Below are positions 17,299-59,869 of a DNA stretch of 64,000 bases, piece after piece; the first letter of the stretch is position 1; every line of letters begins with the position of its first letter. The DNA lies in the NCBI GenBank assembly GCA_030386875.1, contig CM059563.1, forward strand, positions 10,000,001 through 10,064,000, in the 5' to 3' direction. Origin of the DNA: Morinoia aosen (taxonomy: Eukaryota > Arthropoda > Malacostraca > Amphipoda > Talitridae). The translations under genes and the position numbers were made by a program. The notes below the pieces were generated by a model that saw only the letters and a list, made by a program, of their open reading frames with translations, was not told the origin of the DNA and made no database searches.

Positions 17299-17425
17299 GA
17301 GCAGTGAAGGAGATGCCAGCCTCCCAGCGCTTGTGTTGGGCAACCTGCGGTGGCTGGACGTCATCGTGGAGCCTGAGGGCCTGGCTGATGCTGTCATCAT
17401 GGTGCTGCTGGCTGCCACTGAGCAG
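17299..17425 (+). CDS. FANCD2: FANCD2 coding exon 3, with tandemly repeated 3' end
   Basis: The acceptor is ATGCACAG ending at 17298. The exon completes Trp203 and encodes SSEGDASLPALVLGNLRW followed by LDVIVEPEGLADAVIMVLLAATEQ (to residue 245). It aligns with human IPRLIVSQLKWLDRVVDG. The donor GTGTGG starts at 17426. The last 24 exonic bases (codons VLLAATEQ) and the next 14 intronic bases are repeated about ten times downstream, each copy keeping CAG|GTGTGG. Exon length is judged from phase and protein alignment: the first donor gives an uninterrupted fit to exon 4 in phase 0. Confidence 0.88.
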
Positions 17426-17786
17426 GTGTGGTGTGTGGTGCTGCTGGCTGCCACTGAGCAGATGTGGTATGTGTGGTGCTGCTGGCTGCCACTGAGCAGG
17501 TTTGGTGTGTGTGGTGCTGCTGGCTGCCACTGAGCAGGTGTGGTGTGTGTGGTGCTGCTGGCTGCCACTGAGCAGGTGTGGTGTGTGTGGTGCTGCTGGC
17601 CGCCACTGAGCAGGTGTGGTGTGTGTGGTGCTGCTGGCTGCCACTGAGCAGGTGTGGTGTGTGTGGTGCTGCTGGCTGCCACTGAGCAGGTGTGGTGTGT
17701 GTGGTGCTGCTGGCTGCCACTGAGCAGGTGTGGTGTGTGTGGTGCTGCTGGCTGCCACTGAGCAGGTGTGGTGTGTGTGGTGCTGC
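17402..17786 (+). repeat. 38-bp minisatellite spanning the exon 3 5' splice site
   Basis: About ten tandem copies of a 38-bp unit start inside exon 3. Each unit contains 24 exonic bases (GTGCTGCTGGCTGCCACTGA then GCAG) and 14 intronic bases (GTGTGGTGTGTGTG). Copies are nearly identical, with single changes (GATGTGGTAT, GTTTGGTGT, a CCGCC). Each keeps a CAG|GTGTGG-type donor. The array ends at GTGCTGCAGTGTGTACTGG. It produces long open frames on both strands that are repeat artefacts. Confidence 0.95.
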
Positions 17787-18481
17787 AGTGTGTACTGGTT
17801 TTAAGTTGCAGCATAACCAAAATTATCTGATGGTTCGTGATAACATGAATCCATTTCTTGTCAATGTTGACTCTTAATTTTTCTTATATATTTCCTCACT
17901 TGAACACTCGCCTTGTCTGCGACCTTCTTCATTTTTGTTAACGCATCTCTTATTAGAATCAATGGGTATTACAGATTCTATCAAATTCAAATTATTAATT
18001 TTTTGGAAGAATAATTGAATTTTTTATACCTCTGGATTGAAATTCGTGTGTATCTACAGTACTCAACATTGCTGAGGTGTTAGCTGTTACCGAAAGAGCG
18101 CTCATATTTTCCTTTTTTCTATGGTAAAAATTTCTTGTTTACACATGAAATTTAAAATTATAAACCTCTCAGTGTATGGCAATCGTCCATGGTTGCCAGA
18201 CTTTGGACTCTGAACTCTCAAACCAGGTCAAATTCTATACAAAGAAACGAAAATAAAAATTTTGGCTGAACTATATGTTAATAAAACCCATGCTACAGAT
18301 GCCTTATAGGCCTTTTGTATAAGAAGAAAGGAAAACAAGAATTTTGGCTGAAAAAATGTTTATATGATTACCCTGGAGGTACTAAAAAATGAGGAAAATT
18401 CCAAGGAAATTTATCATATATAATAGGAAAACGTTTCGGAGTTTGCCTCGTTGCAAAGTTCCTCATTAATTTGCAATTTAA

Positions 18482-18733
18482 CACGTTGACGACCTATTGG
18501 GACGCACATATGTGTACCAATAGGTAAACTTCTCATTTGCTTACCGGAGTAAATGATCAGCATTTCAATTATTTCACTACCTTTTATTTAGAATAGATTT
18601 TAGCGTACGAGGTAAAATATCATCTTCTGCTATTACATTTTTCGCACTTCTTAGGAAGATAAAAATGTAATAGAGCAATGGAGTCTGTTTTTCAATTCAG
18701 TTAACTACAAACTAACTCAACCGAAGTAACGTG
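18482..18733. mobile_element. Small element with TTAA target duplication, upstream of exon 4
   Basis: The 252-bp element is bounded by TTAA on both sides (18478-18481, 18734-18737) with inverted ends CACGTT and AACGTG. Internal sequence (TTTCAATTATTTCAC, GCGTACGAGGTAAAATA) is shared with 38645-38900 and partly with 40065-40150. TTAA targets are typical of piggyBac-type mobilisation. Confidence 0.68.
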
Positions 18734-18832
18734 TTAACAAACAACTTACCCGTTCAGATGTATGAGAACCCTTATTACAGCTGCCTTGTAAGCCTCTCAG
18801 TACTTCTGACGCATGACCGTGCCCCGCCACAG

Positions 18833-18909
18833 GTGCAGCGGGAGATAATACACTTCATTCCCAACATCCTCACCGACGAATTCCACGAGCGTGTTGCGGA
18901 CGCCTTCAC
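18833..18909 (+). CDS. FANCD2: FANCD2 coding exon 4
   Basis: The acceptor is CCCGCCACAG ending at 18832 and the donor is GTGAGT at 18910. The exon encodes VQREIIHFIPNILTDEFH then ERVADAFT (residues 246-271, phase 0 to phase 2), matching human NLQHDIITSLPEILGDSQ. An in-frame alternative acceptor at 18757 would add 25 residues; the shorter form aligns without an insertion and is preferred. A TTAA-flanked mobile element ends about 100 bp upstream and an 8-bp-duplicating palindromic element starts about 50 bp downstream, so this 77-bp exon is closely bracketed by insertions. Confidence 0.86.
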
Positions 18910-18961
18910 GTGAGTACTGTCGTGCTCCTCGCTTCCAACACTGCTAAATGGTGTTCAAAAG

Positions 18962-19184
18962 GGATCTTTTCCATATAAGCCCTGCCACTAATGCAACACA
19001 TAATTTCACCCACTTGTAAATTTCGAAATAATGCACCTATCGACTTCAAATTACTCTCAAACGAAAGAATGTTTTAATCTGTTGTTTGAGAGTCGTTTGA
19101 AGTTGATAGGTGCATTATTTGGAAAGTTACAAGTGGGTGAACTTATGTGTTGCATTAGTGGCGGGGCTTATCGAAAAAAGATCC
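18962..19184. mobile_element. Palindromic MITE with 8-bp duplication just after exon 4
   Basis: The 223-bp hairpin element starts GGATCTTTTCC and ends with GAAAAAAGATCC, with arms sharing CACTAATGCAACACATAA and its complement. TTCAAAAG flanks it on both sides (18954-18961, 19185-19192). It sits about 50 bp after the exon 4 donor. Confidence 0.82.
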
Positions 19185-19892
19185 TTCAAAAGCTCTTCTT
19201 TAGCTTGCTTATATGTCTTCTCTAAACCTGCAAATCGTCATGCGTTTGTTATCCCAACTTTCTTTGAAGTTTGAAGACTATATTTTGGCTGTTTGGTTTT
19301 TCAAATTTTTACAAAAGCTTATCTTTTCTGGTGTTTTGTCGTGAATCAAAATTTTTGGAAGAATAATTGAATTGTCAGGATAAGAAAGAATTGTCAGGAT
19401 AAGAAACTTTTTTGTTTCTACAAAATAGCCCATACTTTTAACTTTTTTCGAAAATGATCAGTGAATTGGTATTTGTGAATGTTGCACAACATGGAAGATG
19501 TAGTGAGTCAAAAATTTGGCATTGACGTCTTTTTTCGTACAGCAAATTGTATCCTAATCGCTTATTTCAAAATAACCCGCGTTTTAAATAGCTGCGTTTC
19601 AATTCAAGCCTGGTAAATTATCATCTCGATACGTAAAGGCAGGAAAATTTTTCTGTCGCTTTATATGCTCTGGAGACGCTGGTCCTGTGTGGTTGTACCT
19701 ACGGCTCTCAACCTGGTAATACTGTTGGGTGCGCTGCTGTGTGAGAGCTGAGAAGATTCTTCCAGTGACCCCGGGTGTTCACGGTGGAGTTGTGCGCCGT
19801 TATACAGGCTTTGCAATTGATCGAGCTCTAAACCATACTATTGCTTGTGAAACACAAGAATAATGAATTTTGGAAGTTACAGTGGTCTAGAT

Positions 19893-20095
19893 CAGGGGTC
19901 TCCAAACTTTTCAACGTAAGGGCTATATTATATATTTCTCCACATTCATGCGGGCCGAAGAAATGAAAAAAAATTAATTCAGTGATGCCAGTCGCACGAT
20001 AATTATTTTTTCAAGGCCACCACACAGGGATTTGTTTGGCGGGCCGGATGAAATTATGTGGGGGCCGGATGGGGCCCGCGGGCCATGATCTAGAT
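19893..20095 (+). mobile_element. hAT-like MITE fragment
   Basis: It begins CAGGGGTCTCCAAACTTTTC and ends in a GGCCGGATGGGGCCCGCGGG stretch, the familiar composition of hAT-type elements with CAGGGGT ends. The expected inverted right end is not intact. Confidence 0.5.
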
Positions 20096-22302
20096 GAATT
20101 CGGGGAGTAGGTTTATTGAACGGAGCGAATAAAATATATTTTATTCCTTGTAACAAGTGAAAAAAATTAACGTATCACGTATCCCACACTGCATTCTATA
20201 TTGACCACCCAGAGGTAATTCTTGTGACATGTTTATAACTTGATTAACATTTGATTAAATTGATTAAAATTAACGAATATCACTTTATACTTTCTTTCTA
20301 AAGTGAATTCAAACACACGTATACGAGCTGTATTCGTGAATGCTGCTACTGATGTTCTCTCCTGTGGATTACCCGTGAATCATATTTGCTGTTACTTCTG
20401 TCTTATTTTTGTACCAACAACTTTACACGCAGACGCACGTTTCAGTAGACCAGAGACGAGTCGACTGATGTTATTCTAGGAGCAGCCATTCTTTGTACTT
20501 ATCAAGGTATGAACCATAATGCATAACTAGCGGCACTTACACAGCGACTGTACTGAAAAATGTCTCTTAATTAACTTACCGCTGCGCAATTCGGTTTCGA
20601 ACTTGAAATCACGTTTATCCCAAATTAAAATTATTACAATGTGCCATTAATTGAGATCAGGCAAAGAAGACCTACTAAACTCTTTAAATAGCAGCACTCA
20701 TGGTAACAGTAGTTGTTACACTCTGCAGTGATTGTAGCATTGGATCCTATTTTAATTTTTAATGTTAGTTTTGTAGCTTTCAGGAGAAACCAAGACTTGC
20801 ATTACACTTTGTTAGCGGTTTTCAAGGTTATCAAATGAGTCAAATCGGATAAAAATCACCTAAGTTCAATCAACTTTCGCATAGACAATCAGAAAAACTT
20901 CCGCTTTTTTGTGTCCTGTGGATCTTGTGGAGTCGGTGAAGACAGAAGGTTTTACTGTAGACGTGTTATGTATAAATCCTAATTATCAGCCTAACAAATC
21001 GGAATTATAAAAGAGCGAAATTATCTTTCTAGCCAATTCGCTGCTCCCTTTTACCCAGAAAATTTTTACTCATCGTTCCTGGAGAAGCCGTTGGTTGCCT
21101 CGCGGACATCCGTGAACTTCTCTCAGATGCTTCTCTTTATATTTAGTTGGAGGGCATTCCATCCCTCGCCTCGAGTCTCATTTTCTTCCCTGAGAATAAA
21201 CTCTCGCAGTGCTTCATTAGGTATTAACTATTTTTCTCAGCGACACGCAATTAGTTCGTCTTGTATAATTTATACTTGGAATTAAAAAAATCTTGTACTT
21301 CATTTGAAGTAGATGTGAGGTCCTGATGTAAAGGTGAACCTTTCTTTGTTGAAATAGAATAGGTTTTTGTTTTGTGACTTTTTTTCGGTTCATTGCTATA
21401 GTTCTTGTCCTTCACCTATCACTTTCTTCTGTAACTTTTATTTTGTCTCATAAACTTCTTCCAGTCTTGCTGTTTCAATGCTGAGGATGCGGGGGTATTC
21501 CTTGTGCTTAGCTTTCTCGATTCCATTACCATTCCAAAATGGTGCCTTTCTTCTTCCTCTCTTGAGAACACCTTCGTTGTGGGTAGAGTTGTTTGAACCA
21601 ACTTCTAATCTTATCCAATTTCCATTTGAAGCGATGAGGCGTGTGAGGTTTGATGCTGAAGTCGTAAAGTTAGAGCAGCTCTCACTGGCTATGGCTCCAA
21701 GCTCGGGCGCGTGTCAGTTCGCTGGTCCTGGAAACGACCATTTCGAATGTCCTTGCTTTGCAGATGGTGAGTGTATATGTCTGGGCAGTGCTTGATGGTT
21801 AGTGAGGCCAGGTTTTTGTCACGCTTGCTCCACGTAATTTGTGCACTGCTTATTCATAGTGAGTCACAGCTGCTTGATCCCGTGTTCTCTTGAATATTTA
21901 CTGTGTACTAACTCGTGGTACAGCTCGTGACCTGCATGGTGAATAGTTGAACTTCATCTGTGCTTTCTGAGAAGGTGAGCGTTTCTTTTCAGTGTAGTTT
22001 TATCTTCTTTTTTCCGTGTGTTGTCTCGGTGGTGAACCTGTTGCGGAAAACACGATTAGGTTAGATTATACGAATATGTATCATGCCAACTTGATGAGCA
22101 TGGTAATTCTCATAGTTCTGTTTGAAGCACACCAAAAAACAATTAAAACACAATCTCTAACATCTTGTTTACCGACGACAATTGCTTGAATGGGTAAAAA
22201 ATGAAAACTACGTGTTTAAAACGCTGAGTAGGCAATTAGATACGCGAGTATTAGCAGAATCAACTTTTTATGTTTCGAATGTTATTTCCAAGTGGGTGCA
22301 TC
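20096..22302. other. FANCD2 intron 4, left part; possible terminal exons of nested gene
   Basis: Unique-looking AT-rich sequence plus one retroposon copy (21311-21620). If the nested gene's long exon is spliced at 22354, its last exon(s) should lie here on the - strand; none could be placed. Confidence 0.4.
21311..21620 (+). repeat. ~350-bp retroposon family, copy 1
   Basis: A diverged copy with GAATAGGTTTTTGTTTTGTG, TTTTTTTCGGTTCA, AATGGTGCCTTTCTTCTTCC and a tail resembling TAATCTTATCC. The consensus of the family is described for 35379-35790. Confidence 0.6.
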
Positions 22303-24357
22303 TCATTTGATGATGTATAAACTGGAGTTTATTTCAAGTATTGCAATTTTTACCTTTAGAATTGCTTTTTTGAACTGCCACGCCTGATGAGGTGCGCTCG
22401 GCTGTAGCCGGAACACGACGAGGGCAGACTCCGGGACTGATTCGTCTACTGCTCCCGACGCCCTCTCGGCTGCTCTTGATCTCTGTCCGCGTAACTCACT
22501 GTGCTTCTCTCCAGGCTCAGTCCAAGGCTTAGGGGACGGTACTGCCGCCTCATTTTCGCGTTCCAGGTTTTTGGAACCTTCGCTCATGAATCTAAAGTCT
22601 GGGTCATCTCCTCTGTGTTGAAGCTTGTACAATTTTGCGCCGGACGTTGGAGCTATTTCAGAACAGGAGATGCTATCGAGTCCGTGAGCACCATTGTCGG
22701 TGTTCTCTGACTCCACTGAAGTGCCCGGAATTAGTTCGGATTCACTCCTCATTTTGAAGGAATTTTGTTGATAACCAGGAAGTGTTCGGAGTTCTCTGCT
22801 TTTAGATAATTGTTTCTTTAGTACAAAAATAGATTGCTTCAATTTTGGACTACGCCTGCTTGATCCGTCTAAGCGCTCGAAATTTTCTTCTAAAGATGTA
22901 CTAGATTTAGAATTGTGTTGCCGAAAACGCGTTTCTTTGCGGTCAGGTTCTAATAAAGAACTCATTGATTGGGACTGCCGAGAAGGCATTACAGAAACTG
23001 AACGTTGCGGCAAGCCGTGTTTAGTTGAGAAAATTTGAAATAAGGATTCAGATCTTGGTTTCATAGTGATGTCATCAGGCGTCTCTCTAGTGGATTTAAT
23101 GGATGAATTGGTTGCAACGTTATTTGCTATAAATCGACTTGAAGATAAACTCTTCTCTATGGGAAATGTAATGGTCTGTTCATCTTTTGAGTTGAAAATT
23201 TGCTCGGCCATGATTTTAGACTTAGCCTCATTCTTGTTGAGCTGTAATGAATCGTTGCTCAATAAAATAAAATTAGTGCAGTTCCGTTGTTCAGTCTCAT
23301 GCATTTCATCGTGCTCCTCGTTAGACTTCATTTCTACAGCTGAGGGATGCCTATCCGATCTGAAGCTGGTGGTTGTTATTGGTGCTCGTCCCGACGACGA
23401 AGATCTCAACTTTGAAACTGGTGAAGACTTTTCATGGTGTCTCTCATTCTCGATGTTGTTCGAATTTGTGCTTGGGGAGAACTGCGTCAAACTAACACCA
23501 AAGATTTTGTGTTTATTTATAGATCGGTGTGATGCGTAAAGTGAGGGAGGTTTTGTGGTCTTCATTTCAACATTTGTGACGCTTCTCTCGAGCTGCACGG
23601 TTCCTTCCTGCCGAGTTTCTGTCATTACAACTCCCTTCCTTTGATTAGACAGGCTTCCACAAGGTGATGTGCCCAGAATTTTCTTACTATTTCGGGGGGT
23701 ACAGCTTAGAGCCTCGAATTGGTTGACCCTTTTTCTTAAATTGACGTTATTTTCGTTTGCTTGATGCACAGATAACATTGAATTCTCTTTGTTTTCTTCT
23801 GCTTCAGTATGCTGTGTTTTTGATTGGACAAACGTGTCATTATGGGATGGAACTTCGGGATGTCCTCCATTATTCTTCGAATTTCGGTTTGGGCATGCCA
23901 AGACTATCTCGTTCTTTTCACTGTTACTTACGTTTTGGGTGTGTCTCTGCAGTACATCTTTTGCCATGGTTGACCAGCTCTTTGACTCGAAATTATGCGA
24001 CAGTCGTTCTTTACCTCGGTCTTTGCTTAGCTCGTGTCCATTCACTGTATCATGCATTCTTTTATCTAAGGTATGAACTGTCTTCGGTTGGACCTCTCGT
24101 AAAATTTCACCTTGAAAATGACCGCACTGCTCAACTGCAGGATTTTGCTCTGCATCGGTCAATCCCACCCACTTTTCGCTGACAACCTGTGTCATGGAGG
24201 GCGCCTGCAACTCATCTAGGGACGCTCTGTTGCTGGCTGTTTTTGGTGCTGACGTCTTGTTTGGAACTGATGAATTTGGAGTGTGCCCTCTTTGATCAGC
24301 TTGAGCCAACTCGTGCATCAGCTCAGTCACGTCAACTCGGAAGTATGCCTCTTCTTT
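22303..24357 (-). CDS. Nested antisense gene, last exon seen (large, disordered)
   Basis: The acceptor GGTTTGCGCAG precedes 24357. KEEAYFRVDVTELMHELAQA continues in phase 0 from the acidic end of the previous exon. The open frame runs 684 residues to a TAA at 22303, rich in Ser, Asn, Glu and Lys (for example SRRSPKLKQSIFVLKKQ), with no recognisable domain. The final ~17 residues may be intronic read-through, because AAAG|GTAAAA at 22354/22353 is a good donor; in that case one or more terminal exons lie further left, between 18.9 and 22.3 kb. With the four upstream exons the product is at least ~1,267 residues. Confidence 0.7.
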   Translation of the reverse strand, partial: KEEAYFRVDVTELMHELAQADQRGHTPNSSVPNKTSAPKTASNRASLDELQAPSMTQVVSEKWVGLTDAEQNPAVEQCGHFQGEILREVQPKTVHTLDKRMHDTVNGHELSKDRGKERLSHNFESKSWSTMAKDVLQRHTQNVSNSEKNEIVLACPNRNSKNNGGHPEVPSHNDTFVQSKTQHTEAEENKENSMLSVHQANENNVNLRKRVNQFEALSCTPRNSKKILGTSPCGSLSNQRKGVVMTETRQEGTVQLERSVTNVEMKTTKPPSLYASHRSINKHKIFGVSLTQFSPSTNSNNIENERHHEKSSPVSKLRSSSSGRAPITTTSFRSDRHPSAVEMKSNEEHDEMHETEQRNCTNFILLSNDSLQLNKNEAKSKIMAEQIFNSKDEQTITFPIEKSLSSSRFIANNVATNSSIKSTRETPDDITMKPRSESLFQIFSTKHGLPQRSVSVMPSRQSQSMSSLLEPDRKETRFRQHNSKSSTSLEENFERLDGSSRRSPKLKQSIFVLKKQLSKSRELRTLPGYQQNSFKMRSESELIPGTSVESENTDNGAHGLDSISCSEIAPTSGAKLYKLQHRGDDPDFRFMSEGSKNLERENEAAVPSPKPWTEPGEKHSELRGQRSRAAERASGAVDESVPESALVVFRLQPSAPHQAWQFKKAILKVKIAILEINSSLYIIK

Positions 24358-24697
24358 CTGCGCAAACCCAAGTTCATGTCAACGAAAACAATGAAGGGTT
24401 TTTAACCATGCAAGAAAACGGAATCTGAAAAATGCAATATAACGAAAAAACAAAAACTTTTTCGTCTTCAGAATGTATACTTGAGGCATAAGGGTAACGC
24501 ATCGTAGTATGTTGACATCAGTAATTCATGAAGAAATCAGTGTATTGAATTAAGGTTTATTCATTGATCAGCTATAGCATAGACTAAACTTTTTCTGCGG
24601 CGTGAGTATTTTTGCAAGTTTTTCAATTGTATACGTATTGTCTTGGGCTTATTGAGTTATTGTCCGAACTTGTTTTCCAATGTTCGCGAAAACCCAC

Positions 24698-25923
24698 CTT
24701 GTAGATGCCTTCATCATCATCGTAGTCGTCATCGTCTTCTTCATCGCTGCTGTAGAGCCAGGTTCCGACGACTTCATGCTTACTCAAATCTACCAACATG
24801 CGCTTGTGATGCTCCTCAACCGCCGTGAATTTTGGCTCTGTTATACGCTGAGTTCTTGAAGTTTTTGTGACTTTATCTTCACCTTCTATTTCATTTAACG
24901 TTTCTGGAGGTGGACTCGGGTTCGAATGAATTAGGTTGGGTGTAATCGGGGACTGACTTGAGGTTTGGGGCTGTTGACTGTTAACAAAGCTCTCATGTAC
25001 TTTTCTTATGGAATCAGCAATACCACGTACAGCACTGACGCTTTTGTAGCTACTTCTATCACTTGGTGTCTGCTGTAATTGAGTTGAATCTTTCTGTGGA
25101 AATGCTTGTGGCACTGGCGAATTAGTAGAAACACGTTCTAGCCTTTGTTTTGAATTACCATCTATGCTGTCTTTTTTACTTGTTGAATGATGGATTGTTT
25201 TACCGTTAACTCCTTCGAGCTGTTGGTTCACACTCCCTCGATTAATATTAACTACTTTGACGTTACAATTTTTGTCCTTGGAAATCAAAGTGTAATTTTC
25301 TATGTCTTCTTTAATTAATCCGTTAATTTCATTCGTTTTGTCAGCGAGCTGTAATTCCTGAACACTGATATCTTCCTCGTGGTTTCGAAATCCATTTTCA
25401 ACTGTGCCGTTACAGTTTTCATTCTGAATTTCGCTCTGACTATCACCGCTAAATTCGCTCCAGTTTCCATCGTTGCTGTTATTTTCGTAGTCGTCACTTT
25501 TGTCTTCATGTGTTGCCCAATTTGTTCTTCCCATCTTGCTCCAATTTCCATGGTCTTCATTGCCCCAGCTTTCTTCGCCTTCTGTTCGAGGACCTCTGCA
25601 ATTGAAATTAGAATCAACTGCATTTTGTCGCTGGTGGTGGGTTGAAGAGTACACCTCCTGGCTGTCTCTGATGTCAACAGGCTCTGTACCGTGCAGATTA
25701 TGTTGGCACTGAGTGTAAGCTTCTTGTATTATTCTGTTTGCGGTAACTGGTGTTAGTGATCGCTTGTACGACCGCCTTCTGACCGAGTTGATCTTGTAGC
25801 TCGGAGGCTTCTTGTGTTGCCCCGACCTGCTTCTGCTTTTCGTTGGGCTCAAGCGCTGCGTCTTGGAGCCTCGCCTCGTTGTGAAGAAGTCTGGTGCCAG
25901 TAAGCTGAGGTCATTGAAAACAT
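24698..25923 (-). CDS. Nested antisense gene, fourth exon seen (large, disordered)
   Basis: The acceptor CCTCCTCTTGCAG precedes 25923; two bases complete Asp, then VFNDLSLLAPDFFTTRRGSK follows. The 408 codons are mostly low-complexity. A basic SR-like stretch (SPTKSRSRSGQHKKPPS) is followed by Asn/Glu/Ser-rich sequence with several short Trp motifs (ESWGNEDHGNWSKM, DGNWSEFSGD) and a very acidic tract (DEEDDDDYDDDEGIYK) just before the donor GTGGGT at 24697. The composition suggests an intrinsically disordered regulatory or scaffold protein. An open frame of this length through low-GC sequence supports coding status; the role is unknown. Confidence 0.72.
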
Positions 25924-26934
25924 CTGCAAGAGGAGGATTTGTTCTCAATAGAATTTGGGGTTTGGTTGCTTGAGGGAGTGTCAAAACTCGAAGTCAAAAA
26001 CAATTTATGACGAGGCAGCGTGTTGTGTTACGCTCTATTTGAAGTCACGCGTGAATGTATGATATCATTGATGAAAGCCACAGTTAAATCTAAGAATAAG
26101 ATCGCGAGTTATTGTGATCAATTATGCGGGCTCCATTTTTGCTCAAATTCGTGTTAAAATTGAGTGAACAAAACTCGCTGCCTATTACCATCAGTAATTC
26201 AAGGTTTATATTTTCTGCATTAGAAATAAGTGCACACTCGTTTGTTATCTGTCAGCAATTCTCAATTAAATTTCCTTAGTTTTTGTGTTCATTAGGTTGA
26301 ATGAATGGGGTACTTTGGCCTCTATTTAAACCGTCAACTGTGCGTAAAACCTATGAAATTAAATTTAAATTATTGGCAGACATTAAACAAGTAGTAAAAA
26401 ATATTTTTCAGCTATTAAAAAAAAACACCGCGCACATTACGGGAAAATTTCTACTACCAACTCGCAGTAAGAATCGGCAAATTCTTGATATTCTTGCAAA
26501 AACGAAAATACTTGTAGGTCAGTGGTGCAGTGAAATCTAGATTAAGCCAAGTTGATAAATTTTTACCTATCTTTTAGGATGACATCTGCCTTAAGCATCA
26601 AGCTAAAACCGTCATTAATTGGGTTGACGGTAATTCAGGATATTTCAAGCATTTAGATTTGCCAGCTAAGTCCTCAGGTACGAATCTCATGGGAAATTTG
26701 TAGGACCAGTTACTCGTCGAGAAAATCACACAAGTAGTGCGACGACAATTCGATATTAGTTGATCCGAGAGTGGTCTAAAATCGATCAGATGTACATTGT
26801 ACGTGACGACGGTAGAAGCCTCGCCTCGCAGAATTGCCACCATTATTCATGCTGTTGGAGATCTTGCTCTACATTAATAGCATATGTTAAATTTATTATC
26901 TGGGGAGCTTATTCAACGTAAAATTTCTACCAAC

Positions 26935-35366: not shown

Positions 35367-35378
35367 CGGCCCCCCATA

Positions 35379-43676: not shown

Positions 43677-43677
43677 C

Positions 43678-44015: not shown

Positions 44016-44099
44016 TAATAATGCCAATATCGAAACCTTGCTCTTAAAAGCCGGCTGAAGTTCGTTGTAAAAACTTAGAGGAACCTCATTAGGATAGTA

Positions 44100-47413: not shown

Positions 47414-47473
47414 TTAAGCGCGTTTCATTGTGGTCCAATAACGGATACCGTGGGACATCATGTGTGCCAACAG

Positions 47474-49307: not shown

Positions 49308-50344
49308 GTATGGTCTGCAATACACCTTGTTGCCGAAGTCGTTTGTCTGAAGTTTTTCATGCCTTCGGTTTCTAGTCCTTGCTGCGGACGCCGTCGGTCT
49401 ATTCTTGTTGTTGATGTTGACCTCTTCGGTCTGTAGTTCGGGTTACCAACGTCTTCGGTTTGTTATTATAGCAGAAGCTTCACAGGAGAAATTTTCTCGA
49501 ATGGTGGCTCTAATTCTAACACTTTCACAATTCTTGCTTCGATTGACTCAAGATGGCGACCTTTTCAAATGGGGACGCTCGACGTTTATGCTTCAATTTT
49601 TGCAGAATTCTGTACTCAGACTTTCATTCGTACAACTACTTTGGCGTAGAATAAATCAAGTAAATTATAGGCATTCCGATATTATCAGTAGATGAATATC
49701 CTATCAATAAAGATATGGCTGTAAATTGAAGTCCAAACTTGTTTGTACATTGTAGTATTATAGTGATGTGTGCAACTAGATTACCTAGACTAGACTGACT
49801 ACCTAGACTAGACTGATGTATTACATTGCCGATATTTGAATGCGTCAACCCTGTTACTGGTGCCGCATGAGCTTTATGGCCTATCAAGGCACAGCAATAA
49901 CTGTAGCAGGCTAACAAGCCAACGAGCGCTTCAGTTTCATCCTATATTTACCGTTAAGGTTAATAGCAGTAGATCTGTTTGTTTCTGTTTAACGTTACCG
50001 GCACGGTAACGCGTCCGTGCCGAACGTCTGATCGTCCTGAATTGTCAAAATATGTAATCTATTTAGAAATTACACTGCAGTTACTACTCTACCGCATCAT
50101 GGGTTGAGAATAAGAGCAACTGGAGTGGTATGAAATTGTACAGAGATTAAAACCTGTTAGAGTATGGCGAGAGGAACGAGCCTAGTAGCCTATCATCGGG
50201 TGCTACGGAAGCCTCGTGCCATAAGACATCAACCACGCTCAGGTATCAGAGTCAAAGGAGGAGAAGATGTAACTCACACAGTCGTCTATCTTTGCGCTTA
50301 AGCACAACACGTTCGTTTTAGCAGCAAAAAGTGTCTGTTTCAGT
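49308..50344 (+). other. FANCD2 intron 6, left part
   Basis: No coding sequence. Immediately after the exon 6 donor, CTTCGGT occurs several times in ~150 bp (49363, 49426, 49455), a possible very degenerate tandem repeat. A CTAGACTAGACTGA duplication lies at 49790-49815. Confidence 0.5.
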
Positions 50345-50466
50345 GGAGTGTGCTGTGCTGCTGTGGGGCGCTATCTCTTGTTGCCTGCTGTGGGGCGCTA
50401 TCTCTTGTTGCCTGCTGTAGGGCGCTATCTCTTGTTGCCTGCTGTGGGGCGCTATCTCTATCTCTT
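50345..50466 (+). repeat. Outlying island of the exon 7 27-bp unit in intron 6
   Basis: Four to five copies of the same unit found after exon 7 (TGTGGGGCGCTATCTCTTGT with TGCCTGC) lie about 1.0 kb upstream of exon 7, on the same strand. One copy carries TGTAGGGCG. The flanks are unrelated intronic sequence. Confidence 0.93.
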
Positions 50467-51479
50467 GCTTACAGGTTTTCGCTCTTTGAGTATCTTTTAA
50501 CACGTTCTTTCCCTTTATGTGGCTTTGACTCAGCCAACTTTCGGATGAGGGACTACCAAGAATATCGTAAATATATGATCAAATAGTGATTCTATTAATG
50601 CTCGATAAATTGTGTGTCTAAGTATATTTTCCTTCTGCAGCTCGTTAGAATATCGGTCAGCCTTAAGCACTTGAAAATACTGAAGTTTTGCCAACTGTTA
50701 AATATTTCGTATGGCAGTCCCTTAGTTCGGGCGCCAAATTGTTAAATAGTTGGTGAGGCGTATCCACATTGGACGCCAAAAGTTAGATAGTTGTTTCGGC
50801 GAATCCGCGTTGGGCGCCAGTTATAGGTTATTTGATTTTTTTGGGGCTGGTCCTTCTTGGGAGCCAGCGATAATAGTTTCCCTATTTTAGGGTTCTGAGG
50901 GTCGTAAGTTCCGACGCTTTCATTCCGGAGAATCTTCCTGATTTTTCAGGGATATGAGAGAAGTCAGTTGCTGAGTGATTATTTTATTAAGGCGAGGGCT
51001 TTTCAACAGTTTCCAAGTTGCGAATGTTATTTGGTAATTTTCGGAGTCCGATCTGGTTACAAGGTTTGAAGATTTGAGCTGGTTTTTCAAGCTTTCGAAA
51101 TTTGAGTCGAGACGAAATCAAGCTAAGATTTTCGCGCTGGTAATACAGGCTTCGAAAGTTTAGAGCCGAATTGAGATTCAAGCTGCGAGCTAATCAAGCT
51201 TTGAAGTTTTAGAGCTGACGAATTCTGGCTGTTGAAAGTTTGAAATCTGAGACGGATATATTCTTCTCGAGTATCTGTGATACGAGAGTTCAGTTATGCG
51301 AGGAGAATTATTTTCCCTCCTGTTAAGTTACAAAGCACTAGTCGGCATCTTCGACAATAGCCTGACACCAACCAAGTAATATTCTAAACAATTTTTGAAC
51401 TTATTCACTGTGCTAGCTAGCATATTACCCGCTGCTGGTTTCCGATTCTGACATTCCTAATTGTGTTGCGTCGTGCCAG

Positions 51480-51656
51480 GCCATAGACGACCTGGAGAGC
51501 AGCAAGATGAGGGCGGAGGACCTGCTGGTGCTGGTGGTGGTGCACGACGCCGTGGCCGCACGACGTCGTGCTGTGCACTCCGTCCTCAGGAACAAGATCC
51601 GAACTGGGCTGCTGCACGATCCCCTCCTGCTGTCCGCCCTGGCCTACAACCCTGCG
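51480..51656 (+). CDS. FANCD2: FANCD2 coding exon 7, followed by minisatellite
   Basis: The acceptor is GTCGTGCCAG ending at 51479 and the preferred donor is GTGGGT at 51657 (59 codons, phase 0 to 0, residues 394-452). A second GT at 51661 (GTAGCT) would give phase 1, which exon 8 does not accept. The exon encodes AIDDLESSKMRAEDLLVLVV, RRRAVHSVLRNKIRTGLL and LLLSALAYNPA. SVLRNKIRTG is nearly identical to human RVLRNKIRSG. Its junction sequence is the apparent progenitor of a ~2.1-kb, 27-bp tandem array that begins immediately downstream. Confidence 0.94.
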
Positions 51657-53822
51657 GTGGGTAGCTTACCTCTTGTTGTGCTCATCTCTTGTTGTCCGCT
51701 GTGGGGCGCTATCTATTGTTGCCTACCGTGGGGTGTTATCTCTTGTTACCTGCTGTGGGGCGCTATATCTTGTTGTCCACTGTGGGGTGTTATCTCTTGT
51801 TGCCCGCTGTGGGGCGCTACCTCTTGATGCCTGCAGTGGAGCGCTATCTCTTGTTGTCCACTGTGGGGTGTTATCTCTTGTTGCCTGCTGTGGGGCGCTA
51901 TCTCTTGTTGCCTGCTGTGGGGCGCTATCTCTTGTTGCCTGCTGTGGGGCGCTATCTCTTGTTGCCTGCTGTGGGGCGCTATCTCTTGTTGCCTACTGTG
52001 GGGCGCTATCTCTTGTTGCCTACTGTGGGGCGCTATCTCTTGTTGCCTGCTGTGGGGCGCTATTTCTTGTTGTCCGCTGTGGGGTGTTATCTCTTGTTGC
52101 CCGCTGTGGGGCGCTATCTCGTGTTGCCCGCTGTGGGGCGCTATCTCTTGTTGCCTGCTGTGGGGCGCTATCTCTTGTTACCTGCTGTGGGGCGCTATAT
52201 CTTGTTGTCCACTGTGGGGTGTTATCTCTTGTTGCCCGCTGTGGGGCGCTACCTCTTGTTTGCTGTGAAGCGCTATTTCTTGTTGCCTGCTGTGGGGCGC
52301 TATCTCTTGTTGCCTGCTGTGGGGCGCTATCTCTTGTTGCCTGCTGTGGGGCGCTATATCTTGTTGTCCACTGTGGGGTGTTATCTCTTGTTGCCCGCTG
52401 TGGGGCGCTATCTTTTTTTGCATGCTGTTGGGCGCTATCTCTTGTTGCCTGCTGTGGGGCGCTATCTCTTGTTGCCTGCTGTGGGGCGCTATCTCTTGTT
52501 GCCTGTTGTGGGGCGCTATCTCTTGTTGCCTGCTGTGGGGCGCTATCTCTTGTTGCCTGCTGTGGGGCGCTGTCTCTTGTTGCCTGCTGTGGGGCGCTAT
52601 CTCTTGTTGCCTGCTGTGGGGCGCTATCTCTTGTTGCCTGCTGTGGGGCGCTATCTCTTGTTGCCTGCTGTGGGGCGCTATCTCTCGTTGCCTGCTGTGG
52701 GGCGCCATCTCTTGTTGCCCGCTGTGTGGCGCTCATCTCTTGTTGCCTGCTGTTTGGCGCTCATCTCTTGTTGCCTGCTGTTTGGCGCTCATCTCTTGTT
52801 GCCTGCTGTTTGGCGCTATCTCTTGTTGCCTGCTGTTTGGCGCTATCTCTTGTTGCCTGCTGTAAGGCGCTATCTCTTGTTGCCTGCTGTTTGGCGCTAT
52901 CTCTTGTTGCCTGCTGTGGGGCGCTATCTCTTGTTGCCTGCTGTGGGGCGCTATCTCTTGTTGCCTGCTGTGGGGCGCTATCTCTTGTTGCCTGCTGTGG
53001 GGCGCTATCTCTTCTTGCCTGCTGTGGGGCGCTATCTCTTGTTGCCTGCTGTGGGGCGCTATCTCTTGTTGCCTGCTGTTTGGCGCTCATCTCTTGTTGC
53101 CTGCTGTTTGGCGCTCATCTCTTGTTGCCTGCTGTTTGGCGCTATCTCTTGTTGCCTGCTGTTTGGCGCTATCTCTTGTTGCCTGCTGTAAGGCGCTATC
53201 TCTTGTTGCCTGCTGTTTGGCGCTATCTCTTGTTGCCTGCTGTGGGGCGCTATCTCTTGTTGCCTGCTGTGGGGCGCTATCTCTTGTTGCCTGCTGTGGG
53301 GCGCTATCTCTTGTTGCCTGCTGTGGGGCGCTATCTCTTCTTGCCTGCTGTGGGGCGCTATCTCTTGTTGCCTGCTGTGGGGCGCTATCTCTTCTTGCCT
53401 GCTGTGGGGCGCTATCTCTTCTTGCCTGCTGTGGGGCGCTATCTCTTGTTGCCTGCTGTTTGGCGCTCATCTCGTGTTGCCTGCTGTGGGGCGCTATCTC
53501 TTGTTGCTTGCCGTGGGGCGTTATCTCTTGTTGCCTGCTGTTTGGCGCTCATCTCTTGTTGCCTGCTGTTGGGCGCTATCTCTTGTTGCTGGCCGTGGGG
53601 CGTTATCTCTTGTTGCCTGCTGTTTGGCGCTCATCTCTTGTTGCCTGCTGTTTGGCGCTCATCTCTTGTTGCCTGCTGTGGGGCGCTATCGCTTGTTGCC
53701 TGCTGTGGGGCGCTATCGCTTGTTGCCTGCTGTGGGGTGCTATCGCTTGTTGCCTGCTGTGGGGCGCTATCGCTTGTTGCCTGCTGTGGGGCGCTATCGC
53801 TTGTTACCTACCGTGAGGCAAC
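51657..53822 (+). repeat. 27-bp minisatellite seeded at the exon 7 5' splice site
   Basis: Roughly 80 copies of a 27-bp unit (CTGTGGGGCGCTATCTCTTG plus TTGCCTG) run from the exon 7 donor to about 53.8 kb. The exon/intron junction (CCTGCG|GTGGGTAGCTTACC then TCTTGTTG) resembles the unit apart from a few substitutions and a one-base gap, so the junction is the likely founder. Variant classes are clustered: GTTTGGCGCTCATCTC (28 bp), GTAAGGCGC, TATCGCTTG near the right end. A higher-order block containing TTTGG/TAAGG units occurs twice (about 52735-53045 and 53075-53460). Long open frames across it are repeat artefacts. Confidence 0.95.
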
Positions 53823-54762
53823 ATCTCGTACTCACCCAAACTTCCAAGTATGATCTGCAAGTTCTCAGATTGCTGCCATCAAGATCCTCTAGTGGGAATC
53901 ATACAAAAGTTGTCACGCGTTAATGGCAGGAATCTGACAAGCTCTAGATCGGTGCTTCTTAATCAGGCACTACTAGCTTTAATAGGTGACTTTTCACTCT
54001 GGTGTGCACTTCTCTTCGTAGCTTTTCTTCTGGTATCTTAAGTTTTAATCTCGACTTCATGCTTTCCTGCATATTTTACAATGAGGTGCAAAACCAAAGT
54101 TTTTTGTAGTAATTTAGTATATGTAACCTACCTGAAAGTTTGTTCTCCTGCATGCTGATATAAGTCATTCTGCGATGAGTTACCTTATGTCAAATTTTGT
54201 CAGGGTACCGTGAAACCGAATTTCTGCACGCGTCGTCTTCTTCTGAATTCTTATATGACTTCGTCTTGTGAAAATTATTGCTCATTCTTTAGAAAGAGTC
54301 GCGTACCAACCGAGACTTCCAAATTTAGCGCCCTCGGTGGGCTGAATTTCTTCTTGACAGTTGCTTTAATGAGCGTAAACGGAAGTTCAGCTTCCCGTAG
54401 ACGAATAGTTGAAGGAATAAGTGACAAGGCAAATAAGCGGCTCTATTGAGTGTGACTTACGTGTATTACTGGTGTGGTGTGAGCAAGTGAACAGCTGCTG
54501 GATTTCACATGAGCTCCTCAAGAGTGCTCGCTGTGTTCAGTTACATCACGTAGCAAGGTGCTCCAAAATATTGATAAATTCTTCGATGATCTTTTGTTTA
54601 ACTACTCATCGTAAATTTTTGTTCATTTGTAGCCGTCATGCATGATGTATTTGAATTTTCCATCATTACATTATTCAGTGCCTTAGATTGCCTAACGTAG
54701 AGACTTGAAATGCTGCCGTAGTGGGATAGCGTTGCAGAGGCTAACTACGCTCCTCATTGCAG
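53823..54762 (+). other. FANCD2 intron 7, right part
   Basis: Unique AT-rich sequence between the minisatellite and exon 8. No gene or intact element seen. Confidence 0.6.
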
Positions 54763-54860
54763 GTAAAGCGCGAGTATTTCGAGAGCTTGAAGAAACTGGC
54801 GGGCGTGATGGTGAGGTCGCCTGAACCTGCCGTGGCCCAGTTTGGCGTCGCCCTCTACAG
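54763..54860 (+). CDS. FANCD2: FANCD2 coding exon 8
   Basis: The acceptor is CCTCATTGCAG ending at 54762 and the donor is GTGCGT at 54861. The 98-nt exon (phase 0 to phase 2, residues 453-485) encodes VKREYFESLKKLAGVMVR then SPEPAVAQFGVALYR. It matches human [20 protein letters not shown] and FGSLLYKYAF. Unlike exons 3, 7, 9 and 10 it carries no tandem array at its donor. Confidence 0.92.
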
Positions 54861-55911
54861 GTGCGTAGCGGGTCTGGTCTTTGCTTCATTTGTGTCTGTC
54901 TTGGACTCGCGCACGTGCCTCTATCTCAATGCTTGAGCTCGCGCTCATGCCTTCTTAGTAATGTTAAGACGCGCGTAGCTGCGTCTGGAGCAAAGCTTTC
55001 TTAAAGAGTTCCTGGAATTTTTGGGTTTTTCTTGCTTTTTAGTAAATTAGAAAGTGCTTCAAATAGAAACGAAAGGTTATGAGTACTTGAAGAGATTTGA
55101 AGATGTCATGAATAACAGTTGATAGATTTTTCGAAGGCTCGGTGGAGAGGCGAATGCAGATCAAACCCGTTAGGGACGTAGTTTTCTAGATGAAGCTTCT
55201 AGATTATTCGAAGTCTGAGCGTAGATGAAGTCAAATAAAACATGTAACGATTATATCTTTTAGTGATGCTTTTGGGGTTCATCTTGGAGAGTCGAAGTGA
55301 TTACGCAGTCTTGTTGTAACACTTGTGCCATGGCGCAGAAGTGTTCGTAACTAGAAGCGGGTTATGATGAATTGTAACACTGAAGTCGTAAATTACTTAT
55401 GTGGTTTTAAGACGAATTTGAAGTGTGACATTTGCAGAGCCTAAACTACAGTCTCAGCCCATTAAATGTTTCAGTATTTTTCTAATATTTTATTCAAGAA
55501 GAAACTCTGACATAAAAAATATCGAGTTAGTGTGAGATATTCCTTCGTCCGCTTGTGGTTATCCAGTATTTTTGTATACATGCAGAATCAAACACGTCAT
55601 TTTTTATTAAGTTAAAACGAGTAACATGGCTCATTTTGTATAAAAAGAGTAGGGGATTTTTTCCATCCAAACTGCTTTCATTCATGTATATTTTAAATTA
55701 ATCGGATAATCTTCATGTTTCCGATCTTTCTCTTTAGCCTATGCGTAACTGGTATCTAACGAGAAACAAGAGAAAGGGCCTTGCGTTTCGACTGTTACAT
55801 TCCACCCTATTCAAATATAAATCACTGAAAAATGTACATTCTTCAGCTTGAGTAGCATTCCGAGATGGGGGTAGTCTTTCCTGTGACAGTTCCCATATTT
55901 GCCGCTTTTCA
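54861..55911 (+). other. FANCD2 intron 8, left part
   Basis: Unique sequence, no gene or element recognised before the retroposon cluster. Confidence 0.6.
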
Positions 55912-56170
55912 GGAGATACAACTATTGTATCTAGGGGATTTAGCACTCCCAGGGGAAAAATGTGCCCGAGTTGAGAGTTAGGTTGGCCTTTTTGTTGTTG
56001 AAGTGAAATGGTTTTTGTTTTGTTAAGGACCACCTTTCTTCGGTTCACTGCTGTCCTGTTTTTCAGCACCTACTACTTTCTTCTTCAACATTTATTTAGT
56101 TTCATAAACTTCTTTGTAGACTTGATATTTCAATGCCCCTTCTGCATAGATTCCGCTTTCCCATCTCCAT
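55912..56170 (+). repeat. ~350-bp retroposon family copy
   Basis: GATACAACTATTGTATCTAG, TTAGCACTCCCAGGGG and TTTTTGTTTTGTTAAGGACC; it is cut short before the tail by the next copy. It is the first of three consecutive copies in intron 8. Confidence 0.72.
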
Positions 56171-56186
56171 AATAATCCGCTCAGGG

Positions 56187-56540
56187 GGAGACAACTATTG
56201 TATCTATGACAATTAGCGCTCCCAGGAGGACTATGTAAGGGCCTGAGCTAAAGATTAGGTAGGCTTTATTTTTGTTAAAATAACATAGATTACGTTTTGT
56301 TACGGACCATCTTTTTTTGGTTCACTGCTGTCCTGTTTTTCAGCACCTACTACCTTCTTTTTCACCTTTGATCTTGTTTCATGAACTTTTTTCTCATCTC
56401 ACTGTTTCTGTGCCCTTTCTGCTTAGATACCACGTTCCCTTAACTCCGTACTAAATGGTGCCTTCTTTCCTCTCTTTGGATCGCTTTTGTTGCGGATAGC
56501 AAAGCTTAAACTAACTAATAATCTAATCTAATCTCCATAC
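56187..56540 (+). repeat. ~350-bp retroposon family copy
   Basis: GGGGGAGACAACTATTGTAT at the start, CTAAATGGTGCCTTCTTTCC near the right end, and tail CTAATAATCTAATCTAATCT. Confidence 0.78.
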
Positions 56541-56632
56541 TAAACAGTGTCTTCCTCTTTCCTCTCTTTGGAACGCTTTTTTTTTTATCGGTTAGGGAGG
56601 CTTAAACTAACATCTAATCTAATCTCCCAAAT
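56541..56632 (+). repeat. ~350-bp retroposon family, 3' fragment
   Basis: Begins CCATACTAAACAGTGTCTTC and ends AACATCTAATCTAATCTCC. It may be an extended tail duplication of the preceding copy. The partial copy of the exon 9 acceptor begins ~35 bp later. Confidence 0.65.
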
Positions 56633-56667
56633 TCGACCCAACCTAAACACAATTCATTCGTAGATAT

Positions 56668-56744
56668 ATTCATTCAATAAGGTATGGCATGCATGACGGT
56701 TCCCCAAATGTGAGCAGGACGCTGTTCGAGACGAGCGAGAGGAC
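56668..56744 (+). repeat. Partial duplication of the exon 9 acceptor and exon start
   Basis: About 75 bp ending in TGAGCAGGACGCTGTTCGAG ACGAGCGAGAGGA is repeated ~107 bp downstream at the true exon 9 start (56775-56851). The first copy keeps an identical AG acceptor and ~27 exon bases but then diverges and hits an in-frame stop soon after, so it is a decoy or pseudo-exon fragment. Confidence 0.9.
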
Positions 56745-56824
56745 ACAAATCATTGCTAGACAAGTTCAGTCCATAATTCAATGAGAAGGTATCGCATGCA
56801 TGACAGTGCCCCGTATGTGAGCAG

Positions 56825-56996
56825 GACGCTGTTCGAGACGAGCGAGAGGAGCGCGTCACTGCAGCAGGAGGTGGTCGTGGCGCTGCTGGCGCACATGGGT
56901 GACGACCGCCATGTGCGCCTCGCCAGTCTCGCACTGCTCGCCGCCCTCGCGCACTCGCACACCGCGCACATGGCGCGTTTTGCCATCTATCTGAAG
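56825..56996 (+). CDS. FANCD2: FANCD2 coding exon 9, with tandemly repeated 3' end
   Basis: The acceptor is TATGTGAGCAG ending at 56824 and the donor is GTAGTC at 56997. The first base completes Arg485; then TLFETSERSASLQQEVVVAL, LAHMGDDRHVRLASLALLAA and HMARFAIYLK follow (to residue 542, phase 0). It matches human FFDTYCQQEVVGALVTHI and the following helices. The acceptor and first ~27 exonic bases are duplicated 107 bp upstream, and the last 30 exonic bases (codons HMARFAIYLK) plus the donor are the unit of a ~2.2-kb minisatellite. The exon is therefore embedded in its own duplicated edges on both sides. Confidence 0.92.
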
Positions 56997-59215
56997 GTAG
57001 TCCCACATGGCGCGTTTTGCCATCTATCTGAAGGCACTCCCACATGGCGCGTTTTGCCATCTATTTGAAGGTTCTCCCACATGGCCGTTATGCCATCTAT
57101 TTGAAGGTACTCCAACAAGGCCGTTATGCCATCTATTTGAAGGTACTCCCACATGGCCGTTATGCCATCTATTTGAAGGTAGTCCCACATGGCCGTTATG
57201 CCATCTATTTGAAGGTACTCCCGCATGGCCGTTATGCCATCTATTTGAAGGTACTCCCGCATGGCCGTTATGCCATCTATTTGAAGGTACTCCCACATGG
57301 CGCGTTTTGCCATCTATTTGAAGGTAGTCCCACATGGCCGTTATGCCATCTATTTGAAGGTATTCCCACATGGCGCGTTTTGCCATCTATTTGAAGGTAC
57401 TCCCACATGGCCGTTATGCCATCTATTTGAAGGTACTCCCACATGGCCGTTATGCCATCTATTTGAAGGTACTCCCACATGGCCGTTATGCCATCTATTT
57501 GAAGGTACTCCCACATGGCCGTTATGCCATCTATTTGAAGGTACTCCCACATGGCCGTTTTGCCATCTATTTGAAGGTAGTCCCACATGGCCGTTATGCT
57601 ATCTATTTAAAGGTACTCCCACATGGCCGTTATGCCATCTATTTGAAGGTACTCCCACATGGCCGTTATGCCATCTATTTAAAGGTACTCCCACATGGCC
57701 GTTATGCCATCTATTTGAAGGTACTCCTACATGGCTGTTATGCCATCTATTTGAAGGTACTCCCACATGGCCGTTATGCCATCTATTTGAAGGGACTCCC
57801 ACATGGCCGTTATGCCATCTATTTGAAGGTACTCCTACATGGCTGTTATGCATCTATTTGAAGGTACTCCCGCATGGCCGTTATGCCATCTATTTGAAGG
57901 TACTCCCGCATGGCCGTTATGCCATCTATTTGAAGGTACTCCCACATGGCCGTTATGCCATCTATTTGAAGGTACTCCCACATGGCGCGTTTTGCCATCT
58001 ATTTGAAGGTACTCCCACATGGCGCGTTTTGCCATCTATTTGAAGGTACTCCCACATGGCCGTTATGCCATCTATTTGAAGGTACTCCCACATGGCCGTT
58101 ATGCCATCTATTTGAAGGTACTCCCACATGGCCGTTTTGCCATCTATTTGAAGGTACTCCCACATGGCCGTTATGCCATCTATTTGAAGGTACTCCCACA
58201 TGGCGCGTTTCGCCATCTATTTGAAGGTACTCCCACATGGCCGTTATGCCGTCTATTTTAAGGTACTCCTACATGGCCGTTATGCCGTCTATTTGAAGGT
58301 ACTCCTACATGGCTGTTATGCCATCTATTTGAAGGTACTCCTACATGGCTGTTATGCCATCTATTTGAAGGTACTCCCACAAGGCCGTTATGCCATCTAT
58401 TTGAAGGTACTCCTACATGGCCGTTATGCCATCTATTTGAAGGTACTCCTACATGGCCGTTATGCATCTATTTGAAGGTACTCCTACATGGCCGTTGTGC
58501 ATCTATTTGAAGGTACTCCCACATGGCCGTTATGCCATCTATTTGAAGGTACTCCCACATGACGCGTTTTGCCATCTATTTGAAGGTACTCCCTCATGGC
58601 CGTTATGCCATCTATTTGAAGGTACTCCCACATGGCCGTTGTGCATCTATTTGAAGGTACTTCCACATGGCCGTTGTGCATCTATTTGAAGGTACTCCCA
58701 CATGGCCGTTGTGCATCTATTTGAAGGTACTCCCACATGGCCGTTATGCCATCTATTTGAAGGTACTCCCACATGACGCGTTTTGCCATCTATTTGAAGG
58801 TACTCCCTCATGGCCGTTATGCCATCTATTTGAAGGTACTCCCTCATGGCCGTTATGCCATCTATTTGAAGGTACTTCCACATGGCCGTTGTGCATCTAT
58901 TTGAAGGTACTCCCACATGGCCGTTATGCCATCTATTTGAAGGTACTCCCACATGACGCGTTTTGCCATCTATTTGAAGGTACTCCCTCATGGCCGTTAT
59001 GCCATCTATTTGAAGGTACTCCCACATGGCTTTGTGCATCTATTTGAAGGTACTCCCACATGGCCGTTATGCCATCTATTTGAAGGTACTCCCACATGAC
59101 GCGTTTTGCCATCTATTTGAAGGTACTCCCTCATGGCCGTTATGCCATCTATTTGAAGGTACTTCCACATGGTGCGTTTTGCGATCTATTTGAAAGAACA
59201 CTCACTTCGTACGTT
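56967..59215 (+). repeat. 36/37-bp minisatellite spanning the exon 9 5' splice site
   Basis: About 60 copies begin inside exon 9 at the codons for HMARFAIYLK. Each unit is 30 exon-derived bases plus 6-7 intronic bases: CACATGGCGCGTTTTGCCAT CTATTTGAAG|GTACTCC (37 bp), or a 36-bp variant with CATGGCCGTTATGCC. The donor core GAAG|GTACTC is kept in nearly all copies. Further variants (ACATGACGCG, CCTCATGGCC, GTTGTGCATC) are clustered toward the right, with block duplications around 58550-59160. Degenerate units continue to about 59258. Confidence 0.96.
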
Positions 59216-59618
59216 TCAACATCTATTCAAAGAAAGAGCACATGGCGCGTTCTGCTCTCTTTTTTTCGAATTTGAACCCGCGCTTCCTAAATTCGTATGC
59301 CATTTAAGATACATTAGTTGATGCTTTACCCACCAACGACCGAAATACAAGCTAATCTATTGGGCGTATCTACCAAAGGGTAAAAAATGAACACAAGATC
59401 TGAATTATAATAGTTATAAACAACATTAAAAGTTAACAATGCTGGACCTTATACGTTGTCATCTAACACGAGTAGTTTCACTTCGAGAGGCTTTTTTTAT
59501 CGACATTTTCTGTTATAAGTTGAAGATTAAACCTAACAAGGTGTGAGTATCGTTGATTGTCAGTTGTGTCATATGTAGACAGGTGTCTTTTCAACCGACA
59601 CTTGTTACCTCGCCTCAG

Positions 59619-59770
59619 AGTTCACTGGAGCAGCTGGAGCGGCTAAGCTTGCAGGAGAGCAGGTGCCTGCTGGACGCGGTGTGTGCGGTGGCTGCAAGCG
59701 ACGACACCACCGCCCTCCACGCCGAGCTCGCCATACACACGCGCAAGATGCTCAATCACACTGACGTCAG
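59619..59770 (+). CDS. FANCD2: FANCD2 coding exon 10
   Basis: The acceptor is TCGCCTCAG ending at 59618 and the donor is GTGAGC at 59771. The 152-nt exon (phase 0 to phase 2, residues 543-593) encodes SSLEQLERLSLQESRCLLDA, VCAVAASDDTTALHAELAIH and TRKMLNHTDVR. It matches human [20 protein letters not shown] and HLVIRKQLSST. Four imperfect copies of the donor region follow within 100 bp, giving several alternative consensus donors (CAG|GTGAGC three times, CGG|GTAAGC once). Confidence 0.92.
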
Positions 59771-59869
59771 GTGAGCTCCGTCTGCCGTGTTCGAGGCAGG
59801 TGAGCTGCGTCTGTCTGGCTGACGTCAGGTGAGCTGCGTCTGTCGGGCTGATGTCGGGTAAGCTGCGTC
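59757..59869 (+). repeat. Short tandem array spanning the exon 10 5' splice site
   Basis: Four imperfect ~28-bp units carry the end of exon 10 and its donor: CTGACGTCAG|GTGAGCTCCG, then GAGGCAG|GTGAGCTGCGTC, CTGACGTCAG|GTGAGCTGCG and CTGATGTCGG|GTAAGCTGCG. It is the smallest and most diverged of the four junction-centred arrays. Confidence 0.9.

Follow-up and report, generated by a model that had tools for sequence, protein, structure and literature searches.

Tandem arrays across exon-intron junctions of FANCD2 in the amphipod Morinoia aosen resemble the mirages of amphioxus

Introduction

Tandem repeats that extend across exon-intron boundaries have been described in amphioxus under the name mirages. 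The published text available to us places them in the globin genes BflGb6 and BflGb9 (PMC3087553), in PGBD5, with a mention of troponin C (PMC3902484), and, by citation, in Adh3 (Canestro et al. 2002, NAR 30:2871), and the globin paper argues that copies of the mirage type can create introns (PMC3087553). Here we describe tandem arrays at splice junctions of FANCD2 in the amphipod Morinoia aosen, within the window C8:10000001-10064000 (CM059563.1), a stretch of 64,000 nucleotides from a genome of 1.99 Gb in 29 contigs. A preliminary description of this window had reported such arrays at the donors of four FANCD2 exons and knew of no described general process of this kind; as far as the accessible text of the lancelet papers goes, the structure had already been named (PMC3087553, PMC3902484). 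In our literature search it was recognised in lancelet papers only, judged by the parts of the literature at hand.

The FANCD2 arrays match the description of mirages in the features examined, and a comparison of the sequence with the accessible lancelet reports suggests a crustacean case of the same structure. In both, the tandem unit holds the exon edge together with the splice signal and intron sequence, 5′ and 3′ boundaries are both affected (five donors and three acceptors in FANCD2; five and two, by eye, in myosin genes of the same genome), units fall between 10 and 160 bp, AG/GT is kept in many but not all copies, and the cluster grows beside an unchanged coding exon. The present case differs in its host, an amphipod crustacean, and in copy numbers of up to about 80. 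Furthermore, the mirages of amphioxus have been shown to be unstable, somatically or between alleles, and to leave splicing normal, whereas the amphipod arrays are known from one haploid assembly alone. Intron gain by AG/GT tandem genomic duplication (the Rogers model; potato RdRp) shares the duplication that carries a splice signal, but according to the available portion of the report it makes new introns, whereas the amphipod case is one of growth of existing introns (PMC4974935). Ordinary intronic minisatellites share unit length, copy number, private families and local spread, one unit recurring at another site at a distance of 1 kb, and differ in that here the array edge extends into coding sequence.

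Results

Tandem arrays at the splice junctions of FANCD2

The gene in the window is FANCD2. Its joined exon peptides matched the Pfam family FancD2 (PF14631, E 6e-122), chicken and human FANCD2 chains in PDB matched the exon peptides, and the closest protein was FANCD2 of Trinorchestia longiramus (79% identity across 59% of the query), followed by that of the amphipod Hirondellea gigas (54%), which places the host among the amphipods close to Trinorchestia, probably in the talitrids, and not with amphioxus. Spliced alignment of the window and 200 kb downstream of it against two amphipod FANCD2 proteins yielded a model whose 29 exons span 14424 to about 85441, in continued coordinates (the window numbering extended downstream). 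All 28 of its 28 introns are GT-AG, and with the exon-proximal splice sites the model forms a single open frame of 1581 codons that aligns to the two amphipod proteins. The exon numbers 3, 7, 9 and 10 of the preliminary description agree with this model, in which the four exons are placed as follows (a slash marks the junction).

17299..17425, + strand: FANCD2 exon 3, donor after 17425, CAG/GTGTGG (spliced alignment to amphipod FANCD2)
51480..51656, + strand: FANCD2 exon 7, donor after 51656, GCG/GTGGGT (spliced alignment)
56825..56996, + strand: FANCD2 exon 9, donor after 56996, AAG/GTAGTC (spliced alignment)
59619..59770, + strand: FANCD2 exon 10, donor after 59770, CAG/GTGAGC (spliced alignment)

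Tandem Repeats Finder (TRF) recovered all four of the arrays noted earlier, which are thus real:

17400..17786, + strand: exon-3 donor array, 38-bp unit, 10.2 copies by TRF, first 26 nt exonic by dissection of the unit
51651..53830 (TRF 51684-53809), + strand: exon-7 donor array, 27-bp unit, 78.5 copies by TRF and about 80 overall, overlapping the exon by ~6 nt in a probable degenerate copy
56967..59194, + strand: exon-9 donor array, 36/37-bp unit, 61.8 copies by TRF, first 30 nt exonic by dissection of the unit
59760..59877 (TRF 59763-59869), + strand: exon-10 donor array, 29-bp unit, 3.7 copies by TRF (about 4), first 8-11 nt exonic

The association with the donor is clear at exons 3, 9 and 10 and weak at exon 7, where the TRF start of the 27-bp array lies 28 nt inside the intron. 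A degenerate 27-bp copy overlapping the end of exon 7 by ~6 nt is likely but not certain; its local score of 21 was matched by 10 of 2000 shuffles and by 2 of 3172 other window segments. In the exon-9 array, the coding version of the unit is represented by the three copies closest to the exon. The arrays had been said to start each at the same landmark; this was not confirmed, the exonic overlap at their starts ranging between 6 and 30 nt.

The 27-bp unit also occurs in intron 6, away from the junctions:

50358..50459, + strand: 27-bp unit, 3.8 copies by TRF

It thus occupies two adjacent introns (50358-50459 and 51651-53830) at a distance of ~1.2 kb, with exon 7 between them. Genome searches covered the 36-bp and the 27-bp arrays only. 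The 36-bp array gave 25 matches, none of them outside the array itself, and the 27-bp array gave 22, which were confined to FANCD2 introns 6 and 7; both counts are lower bounds. A dispersed repeat family was accordingly rejected for these two long arrays, the two longest array families are of private origin, and the earlier view of the arrays as separate events was supported; they look home-grown.

A search for near copies of each FANCD2 junction, reaching 3 kb, added one donor and three acceptors:

about 56647..56850, + strand: exon-9 acceptor duplication, within the window, 107 bp, two copies, the upstream copy retaining CAG and about 26 exon nt
continued 68694-69007 (L002:4694-5007): exon-16 acceptor array, 60 bp, 5.2 copies
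continued 79082-79466 (L003): exon-23 acceptor array, 69 bp, TRF counting 5.4 copies besides the authentic one
continued 80291-80503 (L003:6291-6503): exon-24 donor duplication, 114 bp, two copies

Contrary to the notion that only donors are affected, acceptors are therefore tandemly duplicated as well, one of them within the window, and exon 9 carries duplications at its acceptor as well as its donor. Altogether 5 of 28 donors (exons 3, 7 weakly, 9, 10 and 24) and 3 of 28 acceptors (exons 9, 16 and 23) are duplicated, with copy numbers from 2 to about 80 and units from 27 to 114 bp. Exon sequence, splice site and intron sequence occur together in the unit at donors 3, 9, 10 and 24 and at acceptors 9, 16 and 23, and weakly at donor 7. 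For comparison, a near copy scoring at least 30 was found at 130 of 1000 random intronic points of FANCD2 and at 31 of 890 outside the known arrays, while in the same 3-kb test none of 254 exon-internal points had one. Two further repeats lie near junctions that are outside their units and were not counted as junction copies: a 142-bp repeat at 77477, 8 nt past the exon-22 donor, which does enter the edge count of the permutation analysis below, and a 20-bp array at 75832.

Junction copies compared with the repeat background

The wider sample was taken from the same genome and consisted of 79 Pfam myosin-head matches, 78 of which were used with up to about 300 nt of flank on each side. Splice signals close to the match ends defined the junctions, and 61 donors and 68 acceptors were kept after the exclusion of low splice scores. 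Together with FANCD2 and dynactin-1, a gene of 26 exons about 50 kb downstream, this made 114 donors and 121 acceptors for an automatic point test. Self-repeat coverage was determined on FANCD2, dynactin-1 and the first 60 myosin matches (56 acceptors and 48 donors, including one that proved false).

Junction-spanning copies were found at 8 of the 114 donors (7.0%) and at 3 of the 121 acceptors, or at 4 (3.3%) by a slightly looser rule, with no significant difference between the two kinds of junction (8/114 vs 4/121, P 0.24). The corresponding counts for intron points 40-120 nt from the junction were 12-14/114 on the donor side and 7-8/121 on the acceptor side, and those for exon points 40-60 nt from it were 0 and 2, respectively. 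Coverage around donors was 0-0.7% in the exon, 31-60 nt from its edge, and rose to 6-8% at the junction and 12-15% at 60-199 nt of the intron; around acceptors it was 0-3.6% on the exon side, 1-6% at the junction and 7-11% on the intron side. Repeat coverage in this sample hence drops towards the junction rather than peaking there. Deep introns outside the junction arrays consisted of tandem repeats to 7.1% (54 windows); by gene, the deep introns of FANCD2 reached 7.7% (43 windows) and those of dynactin-1 19.6% (13 windows), and other non-coding stretches 5.3-9.6%. In the T. longiramus genome, tandem repeats are given as 6.18% and as the largest repeat class in the available part of the report (PMC7062882).

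The preliminary description had judged a chance placement of the arrays at donors improbable. This is true of FANCD2 when its arrays are counted, but in the wider sample junctions are affected at a rate close to that of deep introns. Its proposal of donor-centred seeding was to fall if such arrays proved no commoner than array density predicts, and within our sample donors were affected at about the rate of the intron background and not significantly more often than acceptors.

Cases curated by eye in dynactin-1 and the myosins

Inspection by eye gave totals of 11 donors and 6 acceptors, made up of FANCD2 (5 and 3), dynactin-1 (1 and 1, the acceptor weak) and the myosins (5 and 2). The clearest myosin case, at C11:27529910, consists of some six copies of a 42-bp unit, of which about 40 nt are exonic. 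In one myosin gene (C9:53913532-53921167) donors are duplicated at three of five surveyed exon matches (53913532, 53913877 and 53918536); at C9:53918536 the second copy has no donor, which was lost in a 9-nt deletion. This donor and the acceptor at C11:27526911 were curated from low-score ends that had been excluded from the automatic count. Among the candidates dropped, the myosin donor at C1:35653708 has a stop near the edge of the match and was a false junction; it was removed from the point test and had counted in the coverage analysis. The repeats at C2:45548030, C2:45549537, C8:61577543, C1:35648682, C11:27516376 and C8:61644142 were judged intronic or off real junctions.

In dynactin-1, exon 10 is flanked by a weak acceptor repeat (40 bp, 1.9 copies, L011:62-137) and by degenerate donor copies at spacings near 56 bp and 113 bp (around L011:283). 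A 24-bp array at 171643 begins about 20 nt past a donor of this gene; the junction is outside its unit and it was not counted. One 18-bp unit forms two arrays ~3.6 kb apart within a single intron of the gene, at continued 158978-161071 (L011) and 164716-165248 (L012).

Neighbouring genes

FANCD2 (14424-85441) and dynactin-1 (137407-181859, continued coordinates) lie close together on one strand. The closest proteins to dynactin-1 are those of Trinorchestia (80%) and Hyalella (74%). For both Trinorchestia proteins, FANCD2 and dynactin-1, a longest contig of 551031 bases is listed, and the pair may be syntenic there. A gene between them at about 111-130 kb, for which Pfam returned no family, we presume to be NRDE2, an unconfirmed identity. 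Upstream of these presumed NRDE2 exons, an apparently coding 30-bp array of 18 copies (L007:513-1051) encodes an R/S/D/K-rich, arginine-serine-like stretch. A long open stretch on the minus strand (L016:6115-7050) is one that we take to resemble a retroelement integrase.

Discussion

The junction arrays of FANCD2 are probably ordinary minisatellites, of a kind born throughout this repeat-rich genome and then subject to a selective filter. Short stretches, of 27 to 114 bp in FANCD2, would be duplicated in tandem anywhere in the genome through slippage or unequal exchange. Copies within an exon would damage the protein and be removed by purifying selection. A duplication overlapping an exon edge would be tolerated, as one authentic junction is left bordering the array and the extra copies all go into the intron, where they would be free to grow or decay; the site actually spliced would then be the exon-proximal one. 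If selection places the array edge at the splice junction in this way, seeding specific to donors is unnecessary. Such a filter predicts that both types of junction are affected, that the exon-side edges lie within one unit, that exon interiors are empty, that units are private and that the arrays form an age series, all of which was seen. A weak junction bias may be superimposed on the filter.

Several observations weigh against an explanation by birth and filtering alone. In a permutation analysis, 4 of the 18 TRF arrays of FANCD2 straddled a junction compared with 0.56 expected (40/20000 permutations), and 5 had an edge at a junction compared with 0.67 expected (4/20000 permutations). By the curated counts, FANCD2 junctions exceed those of the rest (8/56 vs 9/191, P 0.03) and the background of 7.1% (P 0.04). 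These values, from P 0.0002 to 0.04, belong to a gene that had been selected because of its arrays. Donors lead acceptors in the curated set (11/119 vs 6/128), a lead that is not significant (P 0.21). Windows of 750 nt near exons contain 13.6% repeats (44 windows) compared with 7.1% in deep introns; excluding the windows reached by junction arrays brings this down to 5.3%, so these arrays do add to the repeat load next to exons. Moreover, the intron points of the point test lie partly in the tails of junction arrays and are no independent control, which makes the deep-intron figure the fairer yardstick.

The same excess of arrays in FANCD2, the repeat-rich near-exon windows, the lead of donors by eye and the three donor duplications in a single C9 myosin gene are what would be expected if junctions, and donors especially, were hotspots of mutation, created for instance by R-loops or by replication that stalls at G-rich ends of exons. 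We regard this as rather unlikely, since dynactin-1 shows no excess (1 of 10 arrays straddling a junction vs 0.50 expected, 8067/20000 permutations), the junction rate over all genes sampled is the same as the background in deep introns, and acceptors are affected too, without a significant difference from donors in either count. A more restricted form, in which some genes of this lineage, such as FANCD2 and the C9 myosin gene, repeatedly duplicate their junctions with donors favoured, would be a real bias beyond the power of our survey and appears distinctly unlikely. If true, junction-biased genes would be a natural laboratory for intron lengthening and splice-site movement, from two-copy births to 80-copy arrays.

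A role of the arrays as redundant or regulatory splice sites, for which selection would keep them, is very improbable. It would fit the exon-9 array, most copies of which retain GAAG/GT and in which 57 of 133 GTs equal or exceed the score of the real donor, itself a weak one, and to a lesser degree the arrays of exon 3 (7/65) and exon 10 (2/14), but not those of exons 7 and 24, which have no decoy equal to the real donor (0/182 and 0/15). The AG is mostly gone from the upstream acceptor copies (4 of the 4 matched copies at exon 23 and 4 of 5 at exon 16; the exon-9 copy retains it), and in all five of the five donor arrays an in-frame stop follows 2 to 169 nt past the real donor and would soon be met if a decoy were used. 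The array copy numbers rest on the assembly, so copies might have been collapsed or invented, yet the graded divergence of the copies, the many differences within the two-copy duplications and the recurrence of the structure on several contigs make an assembly artefact extremely unlikely. Insertion of a dispersed minisatellite or mobile element at donors, with an incidental likeness to exon ends, might be read from the 27-bp unit in its two introns and its weak likeness to the end of exon 7, but is likewise of very small probability given matches confined to FANCD2 for both long arrays and the coding stretches, of 26 and 30 nt, that the exon-3 and exon-9 units contain.

With ordinary minisatellite birth and filtering by selection as the probable explanation, the amphipod arrays extend a structure described, in the lancelet text available, from amphioxus to a crustacean. 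Our counts give a first rough base rate: in the automatic test a tandem self-copy was present at 7% of the donors sampled and at about 3% of the acceptors, which is about the general repeat load or less. Purifying selection alone can make repeats appear seeded on functional landmarks, and the junction copies that it leaves in place are raw material for splice-site shift and intron growth.

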